DNA of 64,000 bases, taken from Fervidicoccus fontis Kam940. GTDB taxonomy: Archaea; Thermoproteota; Thermoprotei_A; Sulfolobales; Fervidicoccaceae. Under the pieces are notes generated by a model. It worked only from the letters and a program-made list of their open reading frames with translations. It ran no database searches and was not told where the DNA came from. Of the stretch, positions 14,974 to 26,747 are shown in pieces. A program made the position numbers and the translations under genes. The stretch's first letter is position 1, and each line of letters begins with the position of its first letter. The stretch covers positions 434,001-498,000 of the forward strand of contig NC_017461.1 of the NCBI RefSeq assembly GCF_000258425.1. Reading direction: 5' to 3'.

Positions 14974-17900
14974 CTAAGAGTAGAAAAGCCACTGGGATCC
15001 GCTAGTTATCCAATCTTCAAATGTATATGTTGAAGCATACAGTTTGTATTGTCCCATATATTTATAATATACAGGAAGACCTGAAGACGTCGGCATGTTA
15101 AACTGTATTATTAGAGGAATATCTGCTCTGTATGGATAAATATAGTTGTTGAACTTCACAGTAAATGTTACCGTACTACCAGCAGGAATTAGCCCAGAAT
15201 ATGATCCAGGAGTTACATTAGCATTCCATGATGAATATGCAAAGAGTGGGTAAATCGAAGGAGCAACTACAGCATAATATTGAGTTGCCGCATATGGAAG
15301 CTTGATTGTATAAGTTACTGTACCCTGAGGTCCTAATTTAGATATTGGCAATCCTGAGATCTGAAGTGGAGTGACTGAGACTAAGAATCTTTCAGCATTA
15401 GTTGAACCGTCAAATAAAGCAGTTCTTACAATGAGCGTATATATGCCTGTATTAGACTTCTGTGTGGGATACTCGAAATATCTATACCTCGTGCTCGGAA
15501 ACGTTATTGCAGAAAGGTTCTTCCCATCTATACCACCTGTTGCAGTCCATAGGAAAGTTCCCGCCCATAAGTTCTCATGATATGATACAGATTCTCCGAA
15601 GAATCCGCCTGCAAACTGTCCATCAGGACCTAATGCATAAGTGATTAAGCTTGTATTACTATAAGTCCATGTTGCTTTGAACTCGAATGCAGATAACGAA
15701 GGAGATTGGACGTTTACATAGAAATATCTCCAATCTCCGGCTTCGTATCTCCAGTCCCAATCGTTGTCCCCTCTGATGTTTGATGGACTCAGCATTAGGC
15801 TTGTATCTGTCGTCGGATTGAGGTATAATGTGCCGCTCATCGGCATGTTTGTATACACAGTGTAGCTAATAGGGACGTCATAGACTCTATACGAACCATC
15901 TGAGAAAGTAGCTCTTACCCTCATAAAGGACTCATATGCGGTAGGTGCTAATGAATATGCAAAGACAGTTCCTTGCAGAGTTACTGACTTACCAGGTAGC
16001 AAATTCATACTAATAGAAGGAACGTAGACTGCAGGATCTTTAACTAACATAAATTGAGAGATCGTCAATGTTGCAGGGAAGTTGACAAGTGGTACAGAGC
16101 TATAATCTCTATGTATGAACACCCTTATAGCGAGCTTAGCATTCGGTCCAAATTCTTGTAGTAACTGTCTCGGATTGCTTATCTCTATGGAATTGTAGTT
16201 GGATGTCGCATAACCTACGTTTATGAACGCCAACTCGTTTCTATCAGGCACACCGTTTCCATTAGTATCATTTATCCAGACATATGCATAAACATCAATG
16301 TCGAAATCTGGATTATAATCGTCATTGTTGTCCAGCAACCTGAAGGGGGCATTAACTTCTGCTAATAATATGCTCGTGCCTGAGCTGATATTATTTGGAG
16401 AAAGGATTATCCATTGGTTTGATATTGTTGTTGATCTTGAAACATTGAACAGCAACTGGTAAGTAACTGGAGCGAGTATCCTTTTCATTGTATAAACGCC
16501 ATCTATACTGAAGGTTGCAAATGAGGTTGATGGATTCTGAATAGTAAAGGTGAAGCTCTTCATCCCGTTTAATGGAACATCTGGGACATAAATGCCGTAA
16601 TAATTCTGTGAAGAGAATGCACTAGGAATGTTTGGATTTTGAACTTGGAGGTATGCTCCATAAAATCCTAAAAATGACCCTGGCATATAGTCCTGGAAAG
16701 TCCAGTACCACATGCTAGACATTTTAGATGCACTTAGTGAATACTCGCTTTGAGATGAAATTAAAAGCTCATCGGACTTTCCAAGTACATATTGTACAGC
16801 TCTCGTAATGTTGATCCTGCCGGCCCCCTGATCATAAGGCATGTATCCTAAGCTGTCAGCTGTATTCATTAGTATTTCCTTGAGCATTGATGGCGGAACA
16901 CTATTGGCAGATGATCCCACTTTTTCTTCGAGCGCCTGTATCAAAAGTGCGACAGCACCAGCAGTTAAGGGGGTTGCATAGCTTGTCCCTCCAAAGATGT
17001 TATAATAAATAGGTATTGGAGCCGCTGTAATTCCCCAGGCACCAACATCAACTATATCTGGCTTTAAGTATCCCATTGGAACGGGGCCTCTGGCAGACCA
17101 CATAATTATGTTATCTTGCGTATATCCACCATATCCATATCCAACCTGGTAAACTTTCCACAATGTAGATGCACTCACTGTAAGTGCTCCTACAGCGGCA
17201 CCCGGAGAGGTGACAGTTCCAAATCCAGGCCCCCCGTTTCCTGCAGCTTGCACTACGAGTATTCCTGGGAATGAGGGATCTAAGAACCCTGGAGTTGTTA
17301 GAGCATTGATAAGCATTGATTCAATATCATAACCAAATCCAGAAATATCATATATGAAGTTGCTAATTCCCCAGCTATCGCTTATTACATCTGCTCTCTT
17401 TTCGCCTGTATAATAGATTGTACCGTTATTATTTACATCAAAACCTGAAGCCCACAAAAGTCCCATTTCAACATCTCCATACCATAAAGCCTTGACACCA
17501 ATAACATTAGCATCCTTTGCAATTCCATTAACAATTCCATTGCCAGCTGCAGCGGAAGCACATGATGTACCGTGACCTTCAAAATCATAGAAGAGACTTA
17601 TATAATCGCCGTTCAGATCCCATCCAGGATAATATGCACCATAACTATTAAACCAAAGTCCGACGTCATAGAAAAATCCACCAGCAACTCCTAAGCTAAG
17701 ATCCTCTTCAGGAGAGTATAGTATTCTATTTCCATCATATGTGACAACAATATCTCCATTATCTCCAAATACACCATCATTATTTGCATCAATTACCAAT
17801 AACGTATAGTTTCCTGGAGTATCAGGATCTGACATCAAGACACCAACACTAACGAGTCCTGCTACAGTATATTCAAGGGTCATTCCAAACTTATAGATTC

Positions 17901-18747
17901 CGCTGGATGATGGAATGTTTCCAACATAGTAAGATGAGTAGCTTGGAGGAACTGTCTCGTAATATGGGTCAAGAACGACGAAATAATTCTGACCGACATT
18001 TATATATCCGCTACTGTTGGCCTGAAAGCTGTTTGTGAGTATAACCTGAGATTCGTCTGCATCCAATACCATTGGCTCTCTGATATTTGAAGTTGTCCCA
18101 TAAACCGTTCTATAACTCCCAACATAGTAGATCAATTTGCTTTGCAGATCTGGATGTGCATAATCAACACCAGTGTCTACAATTGCTATTTTCACTCCAC
18201 TACCAGTAATTCCATAAGAATTTTCTACAAAACTAGCACCGATAAGATTCCTCACGTCATTTGTTTCAGGTTGAATAGAATTGTTTACTCCAATCTGCGT
18301 ATAATTATCGAAAGGACTAAAAGTACTGGGCTCGAAAGTTGGAACGGCACTAGCATATATATTTGTTATATATGTTAATCCAACTGCTTGTATTTGGTTA
18401 TAAAGCAATTTAGCCGGACCATATAACCTAATTGTATACCCCCCATCTTTGTTCTTAACAGGATTTCCAAGTATTATTGGAACTTGTGAACCGTGAAATG
18501 AAAATGTATATCTGCTTAACTCTGATACAATTTTTGAAATTTGCTGTGAAGATTGTGGGGATAAGTACAACGAAACCATAACAGTACTATTTCCAAGCTG
18601 AGAGAGTGAACCTAGTTCCTTTGAAATTCCGCTCAAATTACTGCCTGTTGTACCAGTATTGTTATATGCAAACGCATTTATTGGTGCAGACATAATTACT
18701 ATTAATATAATTGAAATCAACTTAAATAATATATTTCTATTTACCAA
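14974..18747 (-). CDS. Large secreted subtilisin-like serine protease (S8 family)
   Basis: 1257-aa extracellular protease. A hydrophobic signal peptide ends near AFA at about residue 27, followed by a roughly 130-residue region that may be a propeptide. The catalytic triad is Asp in KIAIVDTGVDYAHPDL (about 190), His in EGHGTSCASAAAG (about 391) and Ser in GGTSYATPLTAGAVALL (about 587). The 200-residue insert between Asp and His contains DxNxDG calcium-site-like loops (DANNDGVFGDNGD). The last 600 residues are beta-rich with many N-x-S/T sites and no membrane anchor. The start is TTG 18747 after AGGTGA. It lies just downstream of the stalk-like surface protein gene on the same strand. Confidence 0.94.
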   Translation of the reverse strand: MVNRNILFKLISIILIVIMSAPINAFAYNNTGTTGSNLSGISKELGSLSQLGNSTVMVSLYLSPQSSQQISKIVSELSRYTFSFHGSQVPIILGNPVKNKDGGYTIRLYGPAKLLYNQIQAVGLTYITNIYASAVPTFEPSTFSPFDNYTQIGVNNSIQPETNDVRNLIGASFVENSYGITGSGVKIAIVDTGVDYAHPDLQSKLIYYVGSYRTVYGTTSNIREPMVLDADESQVILTNSFQANSSGYINVGQNYFVVLDPYYETVPPSYSSYYVGNIPSSSGIYKFGMTLEYTVAGLVSVGVLMSDPDTPGNYTLLVIDANNDGVFGDNGDIVVTYDGNRILYSPEEDLSLGVAGGFFYDVGLWFNSYGAYYPGWDLNGDYISLFYDFEGHGTSCASAAAGNGIVNGIAKDANVIGVKALWYGDVEMGLLWASGFDVNNNGTIYYTGEKRADVISDSWGISNFIYDISGFGYDIESMLINALTTPGFLDPSFPGILVVQAAGNGGPGFGTVTSPGAAVGALTVSASTLWKVYQVGYGYGGYTQDNIIMWSARGPVPMGYLKPDIVDVGAWGITAAPIPIYYNIFGGTSYATPLTAGAVALLIQALEEKVGSSANSVPPSMLKEILMNTADSLGYMPYDQGAGRINITRAVQYVLGKSDELLISSQSEYSLSASKMSSMWYWTFQDYMPGSFLGFYGAYLQVQNPNIPSAFSSQNYYGIYVPDVPLNGMKSFTFTIQNPSTSFATFSIDGVYTMKRILAPVTYQLLFNVSRSTTISNQWIILSPNNISSGTSILLAEVNAPFRLLDNNDDYNPDFDIDVYAYVWINDTNGNGVPDRNELAFINVGYATSNYNSIEISNPRQLLQEFGPNAKLAIRVFIHRDYSSVPLVNFPATLTISQFMLVKDPAVYVPSISMNLLPGKSVTLQGTVFAYSLAPTAYESFMRVRATFSDGSYRVYDVPISYTVYTNMPMSGTLYLNPTTDTSLMLSPSNIRGDNDWDWRYEAGDWRYFYVNVQSPSLSAFEFKATWTYSNTSLITYALGPDGQFAGGFFGESVSYHENLWAGTFLWTATGGIDGKNLSAITFPSTRYRYFEYPTQKSNTGIYTLIVRTALFDGSTNAERFLVSVTPLQISGLPISKLGPQGTVTYTIKLPYAATQYYAVVAPSIYPLFAYSSWNANVTPGSYSGLIPAGSTVTFTVKFNNYIYPYRADIPLIIQFNMPTSSGLPVYYKYMGQYKLYASTYTFEDWITSGSQWLFYS

Positions 18748-18938: not shown

Positions 18939-21620
18939 TTATTTACTTGGAGTAGTTGCTAGAGATTTCTTAAGGGTATTGTATACCATTGTAGATATTG
19001 CAAGCGCTACTAATACAAGTATCAAGGTTACCAAGCTAATGTACAGTGCATATGCTGCTTTGCTTGCAGCATCGCTTGCTTGCGTAGTAGCTGCATTAGC
19101 TGCAGAAACCGCATTGCTTACTTGACTGCTTAAATTACTCACTTGTGAAGATAATGCATTGATTTGGTTAGCAGCATTAGATGCTGCAGTAGCTGCATTC
19201 TGAGCCTGGGTCGCTGCACTGCTTGCAGAGGTTGCTGCATTCTGAGCTGCAGTTACTGCCTGCGAAACTTGGCTAGATAGCTGGTTAACTGATGTGCTTA
19301 AACTATTGACATTATTAGATAAAGTGCTTAATTGAGAGCTCATAGTATTTAATGAACTATTAATACCGTTTAACGCATTGTTTATTGTGCCTACCGCTGC
19401 ATTGAGATTGTTCTGCAGTGTTGTTAAACTGTTTGAAAGTTGAGTGCTAACGCTAGTTAACTGACTAGAGAGAGCACTTTGAGCACTGTTAATGCTACTT
19501 GTAATGGTACTGACTGCATTCTGCAAATCACTATAAGTCGCAACCTCTGTCAAATTGTTAATTACATACGCATAGCTTGCATCAGTCGCCTGAATTACTG
19601 GCGTGCTAGTGCTTGATGGCACATAATATGTTAAATTAACCATATATGCACCTGGTTCGACGAATGGAATCCACAATCCTAGTACGTTAGTAAATTGACT
19701 TGTCAGTAAACCATTGCTCGTTGAAGTCCATCTCTGAACGTTGGTAGTTACAGCCATTATAGCATCTGTGTTGTTTATCAGCACTCCAGCCATAGCAACA
19801 CCAGCTGGGAATCCAGTACCAATTACTCTTACTATGCCAGAACCTACTAATATTGGTGCAATATCTTTATTGAGATCTAGTAGCAATATCTTTGGAACTA
19901 CTTGAGCAGGCGTGTTAGGTAATATATTAGTACCATTGTAGAATCCTAAGGTAATCGTTCCAATCGATGAACCTGCAGCTTGCAATAAATAGGTACCTTC
20001 AGGAACTGTTGGTACAGTGAAACTAAAGGTAGCCGAGCCACTGTTATCTGCTGTAGCTGTTCCTACTTGTATATCACCAAAGTATATATTAATTGTGTCT
20101 CCTGGTACCAATCCGGTAACTGTAACTAATACTTTATCTCCAACATAGTCGCATGTACCGCTTACTGCTGCACACTGAGAGCAGTATTTCTCACCAACAT
20201 ATTGCTCACATGGACATACTATTACAGTTTGATTATTATAGCCTGCATAAGCAATTGGACTGCTTTTCGGTTGCATCGTAATTGGGTTAATGATCTCATA
20301 ATATCCTCCTGCACCAACTACTATAGCTGCTCTGTACTCGAAGCCCCAGCTATCTTTTCCCCATATGTAGTGGGCGCCAAATGTAATATTCGAAGATGGC
20401 ATAGTAACATTAAATGTTAAGTTTCCATCTTTGCCCAAAGTAAATGTTCCTAGATTTATTGACTGATCAAGGGTCACTGTCAAGTAGTTTGTCTGATATC
20501 CATAGTAAGTTCCTGGACCGTAACCGTAAGCTACTACCGTTATTGTTTGTCCCGGAGTTACAATTGCGTTAGATGGATAATATATTATGAGAATTCTCTG
20601 CACGAGATAGTAATCATCGGGGAATGTTATATTATTGCCATTTGATTCGACTACAGTTGGTATGTATAAGCCAGCAGTCATGTTTGTTGGATAGTATTGA
20701 TAAAGGTTAGAGAAGTTAAAGAACCCGTAGCTGTTAGTCGTTATATTACCAGAGGAAACATTAAAAGTATATGATACATTTGTAAAGTTCTTGTTGTGCA
20801 ATGTTACATTCATTACTTGAACATTTGGATCGAAGCCGATGCCAATTAATGTTAGATTCTGAAGTTGCTGGTCAATACCATTTCCGGTATTTGGAGATAG
20901 TACCAGTTGTGGAAGGACTGTAAATGTTCCAGGTTTCTGATTACTTATATAGGTAGCACCAGAGCCAATAAAGTATACCGAATATTGCCCCATCGGAATA
21001 CCTTCAGTGAAGTTTGAGCTTGAACCGTATAATGGTAGAGTTATACTTGCAGTTCCATTAGAGTTCACAGTTAAATATGTACTTAAATTATACACTGCAG
21101 TGAATGTATTGCTGGTAAAGTTAAATGCTGTAATAACTGCATTTGGATCTACACCATAAACGTTGACGGTAATGCTATTTGGATTGCCTAAAGTATCAGC
21201 ACATGGAGTTTGAATCGGAGATATTTCAACTTTTGGATATATATTGAGATAGCTGTATTCGCTAGTAAGAAATCCTGAAACTAGAACATATACTACAGGT
21301 GGAGATTGTATGCCTGGAAGAGACTTTGGTAAAGTCAATGTCACATTATACAATCCAGTCGTAGAGGGACTTATTGTTTGTGTTACCCATACATTAGATC
21401 CAACTGAATCACTAGCCAGTTTTATTGTATATGTACCTGGCAAATTAATTTGCAGACTTACTGTGATTGGTTCTCCTGGATAAGCACTGCCATCTGGCGC
21501 GGTTCCAGTAACGCTTATTATAGTTGCTCCTCCTTGTTGAGCTACTGCAATTGGTAATGCAAGTATTACTATAGGTATAATAGCTAATAATATTAGACTA
21601 ATTTTTTTCATATTGTCCAT
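18939..21620 (-). CDS. Membrane-anchored coiled-coil surface (S-layer stalk-like) protein
   Basis: 893-aa secreted protein. A signal peptide (about residues 4-27, ending AVA) precedes a beta-sandwich-like region to about residue 685 with repeated Ig-like units (for example GEPITVSLQINLPGTYTIKL and GDKVLVTVTGLVPGDTINIYFG) and many N-glycosylation sequons. Residues about 690-855 are a Ser/Ala/Asn/Gln-rich heptad coiled coil (SQLSTLSNNVNSLSTSVNQL and similar), followed by one membrane helix (about 860-882) and a short basic tail. This layout matches crenarchaeal stalk proteins (SlaB, tetrabrachion). A cysteine-rich loop (CPCEQYVGEKYCSQCAA) near 465 is unusual for such a protein. The GGAGGT ribosome binding site is strong, as expected for an abundant product. 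Confidence 0.88.
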   Translation of the reverse strand: MDNMKKISLILLAIIPIVILALPIAVAQQGGATIISVTGTAPDGSAYPGEPITVSLQINLPGTYTIKLASDSVGSNVWVTQTISPSTTGLYNVTLTLPKSLPGIQSPPVVYVLVSGFLTSEYSYLNIYPKVEISPIQTPCADTLGNPNSITVNVYGVDPNAVITAFNFTSNTFTAVYNLSTYLTVNSNGTASITLPLYGSSSNFTEGIPMGQYSVYFIGSGATYISNQKPGTFTVLPQLVLSPNTGNGIDQQLQNLTLIGIGFDPNVQVMNVTLHNKNFTNVSYTFNVSSGNITTNSYGFFNFSNLYQYYPTNMTAGLYIPTVVESNGNNITFPDDYYLVQRILIIYYPSNAIVTPGQTITVVAYGYGPGTYYGYQTNYLTVTLDQSINLGTFTLGKDGNLTFNVTMPSSNITFGAHYIWGKDSWGFEYRAAIVVGAGGYYEIINPITMQPKSSPIAYAGYNNQTVIVCPCEQYVGEKYCSQCAAVSGTCDYVGDKVLVTVTGLVPGDTINIYFGDIQVGTATADNSGSATFSFTVPTVPEGTYLLQAAGSSIGTITLGFYNGTNILPNTPAQVVPKILLLDLNKDIAPILVGSGIVRVIGTGFPAGVAMAGVLINNTDAIMAVTTNVQRWTSTSNGLLTSQFTNVLGLWIPFVEPGAYMVNLTYYVPSSTSTPVIQATDASYAYVINNLTEVATYSDLQNAVSTITSSINSAQSALSSQLTSVSTQLSNSLTTLQNNLNAAVGTINNALNGINSSLNTMSSQLSTLSNNVNSLSTSVNQLSSQVSQAVTAAQNAATSASSAATQAQNAATAASNAANQINALSSQVSNLSSQVSNAVSAANAATTQASDAASKAAYALYISLVTLILVLVALAISTMVYNTLKKSLATTPSK

Positions 21621-21690
21621 AGAGGATTTACCTCCTTTGCATTTTACTATTAATTTAATTTCAGGTATTTAAGAGATATGTGTCTTTATG

Positions 21691-21700
21691 TATATATAAA
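21691..21700 (-). promoter_or_regulatory. TATA box and strong SD of the stalk-protein gene
   Basis: TTTATATATA on the minus strand is a strong TATA box, giving a start near 21665 and a 45-base leader. The leader ends with GGAGGT (21635-21630), nine bases before ATG 21620. GAGG and CCTC flank TAAAT, so a small hairpin could cover the ribosome binding site. Confidence 0.55.
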
Positions 21701-21720
21701 AGAATTTATTGTATACAATT

Positions 21721-21806: not shown

Positions 21807-22391
21807 ATGAGCGAAAGAGGAAAAAAGAGGTTTCTCGCTATTTCTGAAGATATAATTACAGAGGCAATGAACATAAGTGAAAAAGTTGGAATCCCCTTCA
21901 CTACACTAATAGAGAGAGCTCTCAGCGATGTTTTCAAAGTAATGAAGTACAAACCGCAACTGATTGATGCGCTTTCATACGCTGATGCGGTAGATGATAT
22001 ACGAAAGCTGGGAGGAATTGTTATTCCAATGACTTTTTTCAAAAAAAACATTGAAAAGTTAAGCGATAAGGAGCTGGAGGATTTAGCCAATGAGTTGTAT
22101 AAGATGAGCCTATGGTATGGAGAGCTTGCAAAGGTAAAAAGAGGAATAAGCGTAGATGAGTTAAAGAGAGCTATATCATTATGGATACCTAGCTCAAATA
22201 TTGAGGTGATTGAAAATGGATCAGAGATGAAGATCATTGTCTCTCTATTAGATGCAAATGATAAAGTTTTGTCTGTAAGTAAGAGAATCATTGAGGGATT
22301 GCTCGAAGGTTTTGACTTAAAAGTTAAGGAAATTTCCTTAGGAAACAGTCTTATAATAGCAAAGGTGCACGGAAAAATTGAGGAAAAATAG
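21807..22391 (+). CDS. RHH-like N-terminal domain protein, unknown function (paralogue A)
   Basis: 194 aa, family not recognised. The first 50 residues fit a ribbon-helix-helix pattern: strand KKRFLAIS, helix EDIITEAMNISEKVG, turn IPF, helix TTLIERALSDVFKVM. A segment KLGGIVIPMTFF at about 70 and an amphipathic helix follow. The last 70 residues look alpha/beta (NIEVIENGSEMKIIVSLL ... GFDLKVKEISLGNSLIIAKV). The same three-part layout is seen in the next gene and in the gene at 26214. It overlaps the next gene by 14 bases. A DNA-binding regulator with a C-terminal sensing or oligomerisation domain is the likeliest reading, without proof. Confidence 0.75.
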   Translation: MSERGKKRFLAISEDIITEAMNISEKVGIPFTTLIERALSDVFKVMKYKPQLIDALSYADAVDDIRKLGGIVIPMTFFKKNIEKLSDKELEDLANELYKMSLWYGELAKVKRGISVDELKRAISLWIPSSNIEVIENGSEMKIIVSLLDANDKVLSVSKRIIEGLLEGFDLKVKEISLGNSLIIAKVHGKIEEK

Positions 22392-22899
22392 GAAGAGCAT
22401 TGCAGCTGACTATGATTTAGCTGAAAGGTTGAAAGAATTTTCAAAAAATAGAGGAATGAATTTTTCTAAATATTTAAATGAGATTTTGGAGCAGTGCGTT
22501 TATGCTGAAAAGCAGGGCCTTTACCCACCAAACCTCCTAAAGGAGAAGAGGAGGCAGTATGTGCTTGAAAAGCTAGGATTTGTCTTGTTGCCTTCTGATA
22601 TAATTGAAAAAGCTAAAGATGTAGGAGAGCTTGAAAAATATGGAGAATCAATAGGGAAAACCATTTCTGAGCTCAGTGATGAGTCATTTGAAATTGTAGA
22701 GATGCTTGTAAACAACATGAAAATTGGCTTTTCGCAGAGTGACTCCGTAATGCTTATACCTTCCTACGGCTACCAAGAATTTCTAAGAATTTTTGTCGTT
22801 GGAATAGCAAAGGGGGCGGGTTTAAGAGTTGAGAAAAAGGGGGAGTTTTACTTAATATATCGAAATATAGATGAAGCTATGAAAAGTGAAAGTTCCTGA
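22378..22899 (+). CDS. RHH-like N-terminal domain protein, unknown function (paralogue B)
   Basis: 173 aa starting at TTG, within the end of paralogue A, with GGTG ten bases upstream; the overlap suggests translational coupling and perhaps a hetero-oligomer. The N-terminus NRKSIAADYDLAERLKEFSK is very similar to that of the gene at 26214 (NRKIMAADQELAEKLSKLAE). Then come KLGFVLLPSDIIEKAKDVG and a glycine-spaced helix, and a C-terminal alpha/beta part ending GAGLRVEKKGEFYLIYRNI. No catalytic motif is visible. It converges on the isochorismatase gene, one base away. Confidence 0.75.
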   Translation: MRKNRKSIAADYDLAERLKEFSKNRGMNFSKYLNEILEQCVYAEKQGLYPPNLLKEKRRQYVLEKLGFVLLPSDIIEKAKDVGELEKYGESIGKTISELSDESFEIVEMLVNNMKIGFSQSDSVMLIPSYGYQEFLRIFVVGIAKGAGLRVEKKGEFYLIYRNIDEAMKSESS

Positions 22900-22900
22900 T

Positions 22901-23458
22901 CTAAAGGTTTTGATTTTCCTCAATTATCCTTTTTATTTCATCCTTCGAAAGAACCTTTGCCCCGTAAACTTGGGACATATATACTAAAGCGTAACCGTGA
23001 TCGCTTTCACTAAATGCTGCAACGCATTCTTTTGGTATAATTATCTTATACCCTCTGAAAAATGCATCTGCAGCTGTATGAAGAACGCATATATGAGTAC
23101 TTGTTCCAGTTAAAATCAAAGTATCTACATCCAGCTCCCTCAATAACAGATCTAAACCTGTAGAGAAAAATGCGCTGTACCTCCTTTTCTTAATAATGAA
23201 TTCCCCATTTTGGGGCTCTAGCTCTTCAATTATTTTGCTTCCCCACTCTCCTTCAATCGCATGTTCTCCCCATACTTCAATTTCTCTATCAACCCCTTTG
23301 ATATGAGAGTCAACAGCATATATCACCGGTATACTGTTCTTTTTTGCAAATTCCTTAAGCTCCCTTATGCAGGGAATAATTTTCTTTACATTTTCATTAC
23401 CGAATTTTCCATCGACAAAATCGTGGATCATATCTATTATTATTAGGGAAAATTTCAT
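22901..23458 (-). CDS. Isochorismatase-like (nicotinamidase family) cysteine hydrolase
   Basis: 185-aa hydrolase of the nicotinamidase/isochorismatase superfamily. The catalytic triad is Asp in IIIDMIHDF (residue 9), Lys in KKRRYSAF (about 94) and Cys in TGTSTHICVLHTAADA (about 128), with the usual cis-peptide GTST before it. The short spacing and the lack of the nicotinamidase DxHxxxH metal signature leave the substrate open; DSHIKGVDREIEVWGEH is where metal ligands would lie. The ATG at 23458 follows GGAGGT by nine bases. Confidence 0.85.
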   Translation of the reverse strand: MKFSLIIIDMIHDFVDGKFGNENVKKIIPCIRELKEFAKKNSIPVIYAVDSHIKGVDREIEVWGEHAIEGEWGSKIIEELEPQNGEFIIKKRRYSAFFSTGLDLLLRELDVDTLILTGTSTHICVLHTAADAFFRGYKIIIPKECVAAFSESDHGYALVYMSQVYGAKVLSKDEIKRIIEENQNL

Positions 23459-23512
23459 TTGAAGCATACCTCCATAGTAAAAAATTTCCTTATATTGATA
23501 AAAATTTTTCAG

Positions 23513-24115
23513 TTAAAGTCTTATTTCCCTATCAAGTTCTTCTAAAAACCGCTCAACAAACTTACTTCTCTCTTCCGCAATTTCCTTTCCGGGTTTCGTA
23601 TACATCTTATCTTTAAGCTTTAGAATTTTCCTGGAAAAATGCTCAAAACTCTCATTCAAGCTCCTTTCATGCTTTCCACTATATGCAAAAACTCTAGCTA
23701 TTCCAACCGCTCCGATTGCATCAATCTTGTCTGCATCGCTTAATATTTTGGCCTCAATAGATCCAGGCTCGATACCAGAAGAGAATGAGTGCGCTCTTAT
23801 AGCATGCGAGATTTTTTTGATTTTTTCCTCTCGGATCCCGAATTTCCTCAAAATATCTTCAGAAATCTCTGAAGCTAAAGCTTCGTGATTTTCATCATCG
23901 CTTACTCTTGATATGTCATGGAGATAGGCTGAGGCAAGGAGTACAAATGTGTCGACTTCCTCTTCCACCTTTTCGCCAATATATAGGCATAACCTTACAA
24001 CCCTTTCAACATGCTCAATTCCATGTGTTATGTCTTTCTGTGGCATGACCGACCTTGCTAATAATTTAAGAACTTCCAGCACATTTCTTTCTTCTTCCTT
24101 TAATTCGGTTAACAT
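23513..24115 (-). CDS. HD domain metal-dependent phosphohydrolase
   Basis: 200-aa HD-superfamily protein. Motifs are HGIEHVERVVRLC (H of motif I), LASAYLHDISRV (HD), ISHAIRAHSFS (helical H) and KILSDADKIDAIGAVGIARVFAYSG (motif V Asp), a pattern matching the YedJ/YpgQ-like HD hydrolases that act on nucleotides. The substrate is unknown. It stands alone with a 115-base gap upstream. Confidence 0.88.
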   Translation of the reverse strand: MLTELKEEERNVLEVLKLLARSVMPQKDITHGIEHVERVVRLCLYIGEKVEEEVDTFVLLASAYLHDISRVSDDENHEALASEISEDILRKFGIREEKIKKISHAIRAHSFSSGIEPGSIEAKILSDADKIDAIGAVGIARVFAYSGKHERSLNESFEHFSRKILKLKDKMYTKPGKEIAEERSKFVERFLEELDREIRL

Positions 24116-24231
24116 ATTCCTCTCTCTTCTTAAAAACGTTTTGAAATATTTTGCTTAAAGTATTTTAAAACTTTTGCGATATTGCGTCTCATTAGCATTG
24201 ATAAATCAAAAAACTATCTAAATAAAAAGGA

Positions 24232-24645
24232 TCATTCGCCGATTACTTCTATTAGAACTTGTCTTCTGTTTCTTGGTCCATCAAGCTCAAACAGCATAAT
24301 TTCCTGCCATGTTCCCTTTATGAGTTTTCCATTCACTAAAGGAAACACTTTTGAAGGACCGAAAAATGAAGCCGCTATATGGCTATCTGCATTATTATCT
24401 ATCAGATTGTGATAGTATTTTCTTTCTTTATCAAGAAACTCATCAATCCAGTTAATTATATCTTTCTTTAACCCTTGTTCGTCCTCATTAACTACTATAG
24501 TAGCAGTGGCATGGAGCACAAAGATTAGAACAATTCCATTATTAATTCCACTTTCTTTTACAGCCTGTTCGACAAAAGATGTAATGTTTACAAGCTCTCT
24601 TCTATTTTTAGTATCAATAGAAATGCTCTTTACGAATGTCTTCAT
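24232..24645 (-). CDS. YjbQ/UPF0047 family protein (secondary thiamine-phosphate synthase type)
   Basis: 137-aa small protein of the YjbQ family. Family landmarks are VLHATATIVVNEDEQGLKKDI, HNLIDNNADSHIAASFFGPS, and GTWQEIMLFELDGPRNRR at the C-terminus, including the conserved His residues thought to form the active site. Some members show weak thiamine-phosphate synthase activity, but the physiological role is unclear. It follows the MBL-fold gene by 13 bases on the same strand. Confidence 0.92.
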   Translation of the reverse strand: MKTFVKSISIDTKNRRELVNITSFVEQAVKESGINNGIVLIFVLHATATIVVNEDEQGLKKDIINWIDEFLDKERKYYHNLIDNNADSHIAASFFGPSKVFPLVNGKLIKGTWQEIMLFELDGPRNRRQVLIEVIGE

Positions 24646-24658
24646 TAAAGAGCACCCT

Positions 24659-25327
24659 TTAAGATTGAATTATAGAATTGAAGAAATCTATATACTTTGC
24701 TAGTCTAAACTCGATGCCATGTCCAGGTAAAACAAGTGCATCTGCGTTTACTCTTTCAAGTATTAATTTGATGCTCTTCTTCATCTCCTCCTCATTACCG
24801 CCGAAGAAATCAGTTCTTCCTATGCTCCCTGCGAAAATTGTGTCGCCAGAAAAAGCTAAATCAACCTCTCTTAAATAGAGGAGTATGCTTCCTGGTGTAT
24901 GTCCTGGAGTCTTGAGCACTTCTATTTCTTGATCGTCAAACTCTATTTTTTCTAAATCTTTTAAATCAATATCAGGATCTAAAGGGCAATCCTTTTCATT
25001 CAAATTAAATCTTTTTAGAACTTTTTTATTGTGTTCTTTCAAGAACAAATCCTCGCTACTCATGAAAAATTTTGCATTATATGCACTTTTGATTTCGTCT
25101 ACTCCGCAAACATGATCAAAATGACCGTGTGTTCCAATAACCCATATAGAATTTAAATCTCTATTTTTTAAAAAATCAACAATTACATTGCTACTTTCTC
25201 CTGGATCTATCATGAGAGCCTTTTTCGGATCTTTGCTGAAAATAATATAAGTGTTCGTTCTCAAAACTCCGTGCTTTATTGCATATATAGCTAAATTACC
25301 AATACTAAATTTCTTTATTGCTTGCAT
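24659..25327 (-). CDS. MBL-fold metallohydrolase (glyoxalase II-like)
   Basis: 222-aa metallo-beta-lactamase-fold hydrolase. The metal motif THGHFDHVCGV (HxHxDH), the second His in KTPGHTPGSILLYL, the bridging Asp in FSGDTIFAGSIGRTDFFGG and the last His in VLPGHG are all present, in the arrangement of glyoxalase II/persulfide dioxygenase-like proteins. Which thioester or thiol substrate it takes is unknown. It is probably co-transcribed with the YjbQ gene downstream. Confidence 0.92.
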   Translation of the reverse strand: MQAIKKFSIGNLAIYAIKHGVLRTNTYIIFSKDPKKALMIDPGESSNVIVDFLKNRDLNSIWVIGTHGHFDHVCGVDEIKSAYNAKFFMSSEDLFLKEHNKKVLKRFNLNEKDCPLDPDIDLKDLEKIEFDDQEIEVLKTPGHTPGSILLYLREVDLAFSGDTIFAGSIGRTDFFGGNEEEMKKSIKLILERVNADALVLPGHGIEFRLAKYIDFFNSIIQS

Positions 25328-25439
25328 AATTGTAGTCTACCGATTATTATTAAAATTGTCTGAATTTACAAATTTTTCGATTATACTATCTTTGCTCCTA
25401 TATAAGACAGAAAAGCTCTCATTTGATTTTTATCATTAC

Positions 25440-26123
25440 TCACAAACCAAAAGAGAAGAATTTTGCTATTATAAGTATTATTGAAGACGAGAGAACTATC
25501 AAGATATTGTCATCTAATGGATTATACTCGTATCTTTCTACAAAAGATGCGACAACTGAGGCGATAACTCCCCAGTACCCAGCATATATATATCCAATTG
25601 GTATCATTAATGCTGCCATAGCGAGATTGCCTGCCCAGTGCTTAGTCCTCTTTCCAAAGAGGAGGTTCCTCACTATACCGGTTATTCCGTCTCCAAAGCT
25701 TATAAGCATAGGCGGCAACATCGCAACGAAAGGGTTGCCCAGGTATAGCCACAGAATCAGTATGGAAAAACCCCAAGCAAATGCGAAATTCACTTCATAT
25801 TTATTCTCATCGACTTGAAACCAATAATACTTTTTCCTGCTTTTGTGCTTGTAGAGGAGAAAAGATCCTAGCAAAACTGCAAATAAAAATGGCGTAAAAG
25901 GTTCTTTAAAGATAAATGGGATAAAGGCAGAAACAACCCCTCCAACAAAAATGTGTATTATCTTCCTGTTGTAATATACAGCTTTCCTTTCTTTTACTCC
26001 TCTTTTTATCATAGCATCATATGTTTTCCTAGTCACATAACATATTAATAAAAAAACGTATATAGCTAATGGAATTGCAACAGCTAAGTCTCTAATAAAT
26101 ACATCTATACTGTACGTTTCCAA
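25440..26123 (-). CDS. Polyprenol/dolichol kinase-like integral membrane protein
   Basis: 227-aa protein with six or seven membrane segments in the SEC59/DGK1/VTE5 family of CTP-dependent lipid kinases, related to phosphatidate cytidylyltransferases. Landmarks are YNRKIIHIFVGGVVSAFIP (conserved RKxxH) near residue 48 and GDGITGIVRNLLFGKRTKHWAGNLAM near 145, the probable nucleotide-binding loop. It may make polyprenyl phosphate carriers for glycosylation, which would fit the flippase, PAP2 and glycosyltransferase genes in this window. The start is TTG 26123 eight bases after GGTG. Confidence 0.85.
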   Translation of the reverse strand: METYSIDVFIRDLAVAIPLAIYVFLLICYVTRKTYDAMIKRGVKERKAVYYNRKIIHIFVGGVVSAFIPFIFKEPFTPFLFAVLLGSFLLYKHKSRKKYYWFQVDENKYEVNFAFAWGFSILILWLYLGNPFVAMLPPMLISFGDGITGIVRNLLFGKRTKHWAGNLAMAALMIPIGYIYAGYWGVIASVVASFVERYEYNPLDDNILIVLSSSIILIIAKFFSFGL

Positions 26124-26213
26124 GCGATAAACACCATGGCAAAATATATTAAATTATTCCTGACGAAAGTATTAAATCTTTTTCTAAAGAAAAAATTACA
26201 AGATGATGCAAAA

Positions 26214-26747
26214 ATGCCACTTAACAGAAAGATAATGGCTGCCGACCAAGAATTAGCGGAGAAGCTTTCAAAGCTTGCTGAAAAATATAATACTAGCCTT
26301 TTCAACTTAACAAATAAGGCAATTTCTTCTTATATAATAATGGAAAAGTCTGGGTATGGAGATCCTGTAGATGGAGCAGTAGATTTGACAATTTTTCAAA
26401 CGCTCTTGTCCTTCGGCTTCAAGCTAGAAATTCCCAATCTAGAGGGTGATGAAGCGAAAAAAGCTGGAAGAGCTGTTTGGATTTTAATATCCAGCAGGGT
26501 CGATGGGGCTGACAAAGATAAAGTTCTCCTCAGACTTTTAAGCTTATTTGTTGGCGAGAAGAATGTTTTCACTGAGACTAAAAATGGAGAAAAGAGATTT
26601 GTAGTTTCCCTTCCTATAAATCCCAAGGTAAATGAAGAAGCTTTAAAAGATATCATATATGGATTTTTAGAAGAAGCTTATGGAAGAAACAGGTTCGAAA
26701 TTGAGAATAAGGCTAAGCTTTTAATAATCAGTATTTTTTCAGATTAA
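26214..26747 (+). CDS. RHH-like N-terminal domain protein, unknown function (paralogue C)
   Basis: 177 aa from the ATG at 26214. This start makes its N-terminus (NRKIMAADQELAEKLSKLAE) match that of paralogue B residue for residue, and a TATA-like AATATATTAA at 26143-26152 sits the right distance upstream. An in-frame ATG at 26136 would add 26 basic, amphipathic residues and cannot be excluded. The rest follows the same layout as A and B: SFGFKLEIPNLEG, a glycine-spaced helix, then an alpha/beta domain ending EIENKAKLLIISIF. Family and function not recognised. It converges with the NUDIX gene (4-base overlap). Confidence 0.72.
   Translation: MPLNRKIMAADQELAEKLSKLAEKYNTSLFNLTNKAISSYIIMEKSGYGDPVDGAVDLTIFQTLLSFGFKLEIPNLEGDEAKKAGRAVWILISSRVDGADKDKVLLRLLSLFVGEKNVFTETKNGEKRFVVSLPINPKVNEEALKDIIYGFLEEAYGRNRFEIENKAKLLIISIFSD

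Follow-up and report, generated by a model that had tools for sequence, protein, structure and literature searches.

The three genes A, B and C of the window, which is the whole stretch of 64,000 nucleotides analysed here (bases 434001-498000 of a 1,319,206-bp single-contig genome), encode paralogous proteins with an N-terminal ribbon-helix-helix (RHH) domain and a helical and beta-beta-alpha-beta-beta C-terminal domain. From the company their genes keep and from a palindromic DNA motif found at S-layer promoters, it is likely that this family represents dedicated S-layer regulators of the Sulfolobales (in the broad GTDB sense), which would bind TGTATACA and would, most likely, activate S-layer transcription. 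In these archaea the S-layer serves as the cell wall. The predicted main target of A, B and C in the window is the slaB-like gene, whose promoter region carries two putative sites (Table 1). What appears to be new is an unnamed RHH family with a distinct C-terminal domain and a putative tie to an S-layer promoter motif; the RHH part itself is of a known kind.

Table 1. S-layer and RHH features of the window, in window positions
Feature	Position	Strand	Description
Large subtilase of the S-layer cluster	14974..18747	-	
SlaB-like S-layer stalk protein	18939..21620	-	signal peptide, long coiled coil, C-terminal membrane helix; divergent from A
Predicted slaB TATA box (CTTAAATA)	21666..21673	-	by consensus score only
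Second site, one mismatch (TATATACA)	21689..21696	-	21 bp nearer the slaB TATA box
Predicted operator TGTATACA	21710..21717	.	between slaB and A
Gene A	21807..22391	+	RHH protein, 194 aa, C-terminal beta-beta-alpha-beta-beta domain; first in conserved pair
Gene B	22378..22899	+	RHH paralogue, 173 aa, TTG start; second in conserved pair
Gene C	26214..26747	+	third RHH paralogue

Genes A, B and C and their surroundings

The three open reading frames and the 14-base overlap of A and B, all described in an earlier sequence-only reading of this DNA, were found again. That reading had placed the start of gene C at 26214; the longest open reading frame begins at 26136, and the starts of the relatives back 26214. 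A metagenome bin of Fervidicoccus holds the closest named relative of A (48% identity). The three genes had been described as lying near surface-protein and lipid-carrier genes. The first part holds, given the SlaB-like and subtilase genes, whereas the supposed lipid-carrier gene (25440-26123) is without a Pfam match and lies outside the widely conserved context. The layout of subtilase and coiled-coil stalk gene recalls the tetrabrachion of Staphylothermus with its bound subtilisin-family protease (PMC5744192), and the same pair of genes is found again in f9 genomes (L088, L110, L118 and L215).

A family with an RHH end and a shared C-terminal domain

The RHH signal is weak in single sequences: A matches Pfam RHH_3 at E=4e-4, just under the cut-off, the best RHH_1 match among 69 relatives has E=7e-6, and a search of the PDB with the family profile brings up AvtR and CopG (E about 0.002-0.004). 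The models that AlphaFold gives for A (mean pLDDT 89.1, pTM 0.78) and B (mean pLDDT 87.2, pTM 0.68) have a common order of two RHH helices, four further helices and the beta-beta-alpha-beta-beta unit. These are monomer models and do not show the RHH strand, whose formation requires the dimer. The profile matches (RHH_1, RHH_3, CopG) and the modelled helices thus bear out the RHH end proposed from sequence. Profile-profile alignment joins A and B over 156 columns (E=2e-6) and B and C over 161 columns (E=8e-17). The three thus have the C-terminal region in common, as had also been proposed; A aligns with a Sulfolobaceae subfamily over 172 columns (E=6e-8). Within the genome B against C is weak (E=0.05), and the kinship of the two is therefore clear only when relatives are included.

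Pfam, NCBIfam and PHROGs gave sensible matches to the RHH end only, mostly below the cut-off, in agreement with the earlier remark that the family was not a recognised one. Neither the lack of an RHH fold or of a common C-terminal fold nor a match to a characterised family, each of which had been named as a reason to give up the reading, turned up. For the C-terminal domain Foldseek gave no convincing natural match, the top matches being designed proteins, and weak fold matches to BcsD/CesD and H-NOX at E about 0.005-0.02 (in A, H-NOX at E about 0.01 and TM about 0.33, BcsD/CesD at TM about 0.4; B is weaker). A V4R or H-NOX identity, suggested by the sequence pattern, remains speculation: the V4R profile matched none of 69 members nor any of 10 members, no V4R gene is present in the genome, and the fold matches are weak. 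Among ligand-binding families the domain found no match. Of the two roles offered in the sequence-only reading, the regulatory one is now strongly supported, with the S-layer promoter as the predicted target, while a sensor/adaptor role has neither gained nor lost support. The C-terminal domain may have a sensing or TFB/TBP-contacting function.

Searches by sequence found no viral relatives. The best viral fold match to A is BFVD Q70LC9, the uncharacterised ORF221 of Acidianus filamentous virus 1 (E=8e-4, but TM 0.27).

At E<=0.001 the family profile matches 108 of 165 genomes of the class, the weakest of these probably being matches to the RHH domain only, and each of the 31 tested genomes of the Sulfolobaceae has relatives. 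A tree of 121 members separates an A clade (36), a B clade (31), a C clade (6) restricted to the family of this genome, single-gene clades and a Sulfolobaceae clade. The overlapping A-B pair is found repeatedly across the order; the fetched loci hold 39 tandem pairs, and most of the overlaps that were measured are 8-20 nt long. In L083 (G040) the only RHH gene found is of the C type, and the S-layer promoter lies unreadable at the contig end.

Linkage to S-layer genes and a palindromic promoter motif

Outside the Sulfolobaceae, 31 of 47 RHH loci contain a gene for a SlaB-like stalk protein, often accompanied by a gene for a large subtilase or for a SlaA-like protein of about 1100-1400 aa. The labels SlaB-like and SlaA-like follow the architecture, the layout of the operon and homology inside the order, as none of the solved S-layer structures was matched by sequence. 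Gene order and orientation of the RHH and S-layer genes vary between lineages, so the linkage is more than preserved synteny. In the Sulfolobaceae, however, the RHH genes are not adjacent to slaAB, which counts against a role in S-layer regulation.

The motif TGTATACA was noticed upstream of slaB in three discovery loci (the window, L079 and L103). It is present in 16 of 26 other operon-leading S-layer promoters vs 6 of 916 other upstream regions (p=2e-23; the promoters are related by descent, and this and the other p-values given here overstate independence), and it ranks first of 256 palindromic 8-mers for enrichment at S-layer promoters. Each of the six exceptions is itself an S-layer gene, an RHH gene or a gene adjacent to an RHH gene: two lie beside an RHH pair (L094, L096), two are divergent from an RHH gene (L098, L099), one is itself an RHH gene (L195) and one is a slaB fragment (L104). 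The looser form TGTNNACA, the best of 64 palindromes of that form, occurs in 37 of 44 S-layer promoters of genomes with the family, leaving out the discovery loci, vs 34 of 909 others (p=1e-39); sampling is uneven and several genomes are incomplete. Some S-layer promoters of such genomes, e.g. in L231, have no clear site. The variants TGTGCACA and TGTGTACA recur in some lineages. In L097, L114, L223 and L224 TGTGCACA replaces TGTATACA, and these lineages offer a natural test of whether the RHH strand and the operator change together.

In L094 (6925-8898) and L096 (11045-13033), the RHH pair has as its neighbour a gene of about 650 aa that encodes a pilin-like N-terminus and has TGTATACA upstream; these genes are a possible second surface target.

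Position of the sites and proposed mode of action

The two sites of the window begin 44 and 23 bp upstream of the predicted slaB TATA box. Across the promoters, the distance of perfect TGTNNACA sites from the TATA box is mostly 12-15, 22-25, 34-36 or 43-46 bp, the boxes being set by a simple consensus score which leaves a few doubtful, and a 10-bp spacing of sites occurs in 50 pairs in 52 promoters vs 10 in 909. The sites are thus on one helical face, in register with TATA, and the nearest is just upstream of the BRE. Three genomes of the Sulfolobaceae have an RHH-family gene with a perfect TGTATACA-AT-TGTATACA at its start codon.

A usual form of RHH operator is a short tandem of 8-bp palindromes, as for MetJ, and archaeal repressor sites are typically downstream of TATA. 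RHH dimers of the family would bind the 8-bp palindromes TGTATACA, in general form TGTNNACA. Heterodimers of A and B, suggested by their strict pairing, are probable in the paired lineages and homodimers in the single-gene lineages. Bound at the upstream sites the proteins would most likely assist the recruitment of TBP/TFB and thereby activate the S-layer genes; among the Sulfolobaceae relatives there are some with sites across the start codon of the regulator's own gene, which suggests autorepression. The family appears to use both placements, upstream of the BRE and of repressor type. Characterised RHH proteins are mostly repressors, which counts against activation. The sites of archaeal activators are typically directly upstream of the BRE (EarA, PMC5512572; TrmBL1, PMC4706686).

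Repression of the S-layer promoter by the same proteins is the alternative to be weighed first. RHH dimers could nucleate on the upstream TGTATACA and polymerise towards BRE and TATA, blocking TBP/TFB, as proposed for the viral SvtR; repression is the effect of the known RHH regulators of archaeal viruses, polymers that grow from upstream sites to the promoter have been described (PMC5569661), and the sites over the start codons of RHH genes in Sulfolobaceae have the look of repressor sites. We regard this as rather unlikely, since at S-layer promoters the sites keep helical phase and end just upstream of the BRE, leaving BRE, TATA and start site uncovered, and since the transcription of S-layer genes is described as constitutive (PMC5744192).

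Activation is the more likely reading. A more far-reaching proposal, which we hold tentatively and with somewhat less than even confidence, is an order-wide S-layer regulon in the Thermoproteota, in which heterodimeric RHH activators with a new C-terminal sensor domain would read a helically phased TGTATACA array at slaA/slaB and adjust coat production, perhaps to the state of the envelope or to the cell cycle, with feedback on their own genes.

Association of the motif with the RHH family

The motif might also be read by some other regulator, with the RHH proteins being neighbours with a different job, as motif and family are joined by linkage and co-occurrence only and the genes are apart in the Sulfolobaceae. 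This we consider quite improbable. The motif is present at the starts of RHH genes, including the perfect tandem where the S-layer genes lie elsewhere, palindrome and tandem spacing suit an RHH protein, and where the family is absent the motif is absent too. In genomes without a full-length member TGTNNACA is found at none of nine S-layer promoters, and at none of six when the comparison is limited to clear SlaB homologues, G062, G046 and G061 having been dropped from the nine controls as their SlaB match is in the coiled coil only; 37 of 44 promoters of genomes with the family vs 0 of these 6 gives p=1e-4. Against the tie stands G025, where the motif is present and no RHH gene was found in the fragmented assembly.

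Where S-layer operons are unlinked to RHH genes, TGTNNACA is present in six of eight: G007 and G039 have exact TGTATACA, G079 has two exact copies 50 kb away, and the others have variants. The slaA promoters of the Sulfolobaceae carry exact TGTATACA in nine of eleven cases and TGTGTACA in one, with one lacking a full match, and the family probably acts on S-layer genes in Sulfolobus too. In 98 whole genomes the tandem TGTATACA-NN-TGTNNNCA occurs in 18 places, nine of which are S-layer or RHH promoters; the other nine match the expectation from the reversed-pattern control, about eight. A broad regulon was considered and rejected, since whole-genome matches to TGTANNCA-N6-TTWAAA are little above the reversed control and ten that were inspected showed no consistent target.

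A toxin-antitoxin-like module or mobile-element regulator, to which the weak matches of most members to Pfam CopG_antitoxin might point, was rejected as an explanation of the A-B pair and has a negligible probability, given that there is no recurring toxin-type partner (the neighbours are the paralogue and S-layer genes), that A and B are paralogues of the same architecture, and that the pair is kept across the order beside S-layer genes, with no viral relatives found by sequence.

Comparison with known regulators

With the MetJ, CopG and Arc repressors and the viral SvtR, AvtR and F55 the family shares the N-terminal RHH, short tandem operator sites (here candidate sites) and probable cooperative binding (PMC5569661). 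It differs from them in the additional C-terminal domain, which is about 100-140 aa long and matches no known family, and in being chromosomal, conserved across an order, tied to S-layer promoters and often encoded by two genes, with a placement of sites which suggests activation. Three other archaeal regulators were compared by description. EarA, the archaellum activator of Euryarchaeota, is likewise a dedicated regulator of a surface structure, and its short, repeated sites adjoin the BRE on the upstream side (PMC5512572), but it is found in other organisms, has other sites and targets the archaellum operon. TrmBL1 of Pyrococcus also has a palindromic site whose position sets the effect, activating upstream of the BRE and repressing downstream of TATA (PMC4706686), as the position would here; unlike the present family it is a global sugar regulator. 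CdrS is a chromosomal archaeal RHH transcription regulator as well (PMC7439475), but a haloarchaeal one with the cell-division target ftsZ2.

In the open-access literature searched, which covered S-layer regulation, RHH proteins in connection with the S-layer and the slaA promoter, no transcription regulator of S-layer genes was found described. With a predicted regulator family and DNA site in the Sulfolobaceae, which are genetically tractable, direct tests become possible of how the S-layer is regulated, of the links of this regulation to cell division and virus entry, and of whether RHH proteins activate.

Subfamilies of the Sulfolobaceae

Two subfamilies are found in the Sulfolobaceae, the names of the neighbouring genes being read from sequence and not from profiles. 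The first, present in nearly all Sulfolobaceae, is a single RHH member convergent with a nep1-like gene (L182-L187, L189, L193, L194, L198, L211-L213), and has a conserved Cys and a GTGFSLEST motif in its C-terminal domain. The second adjoins a conserved cluster of four genes of about 300, 300, 300 and 160 aa (L098:6140-9880, also L099, L188, L190, L192, L195 and L196), of which the third appears CitG-like and the fourth metallophosphoesterase-like by eye. In several loci of this second subfamily TGTATACA is present at the start of the RHH gene.
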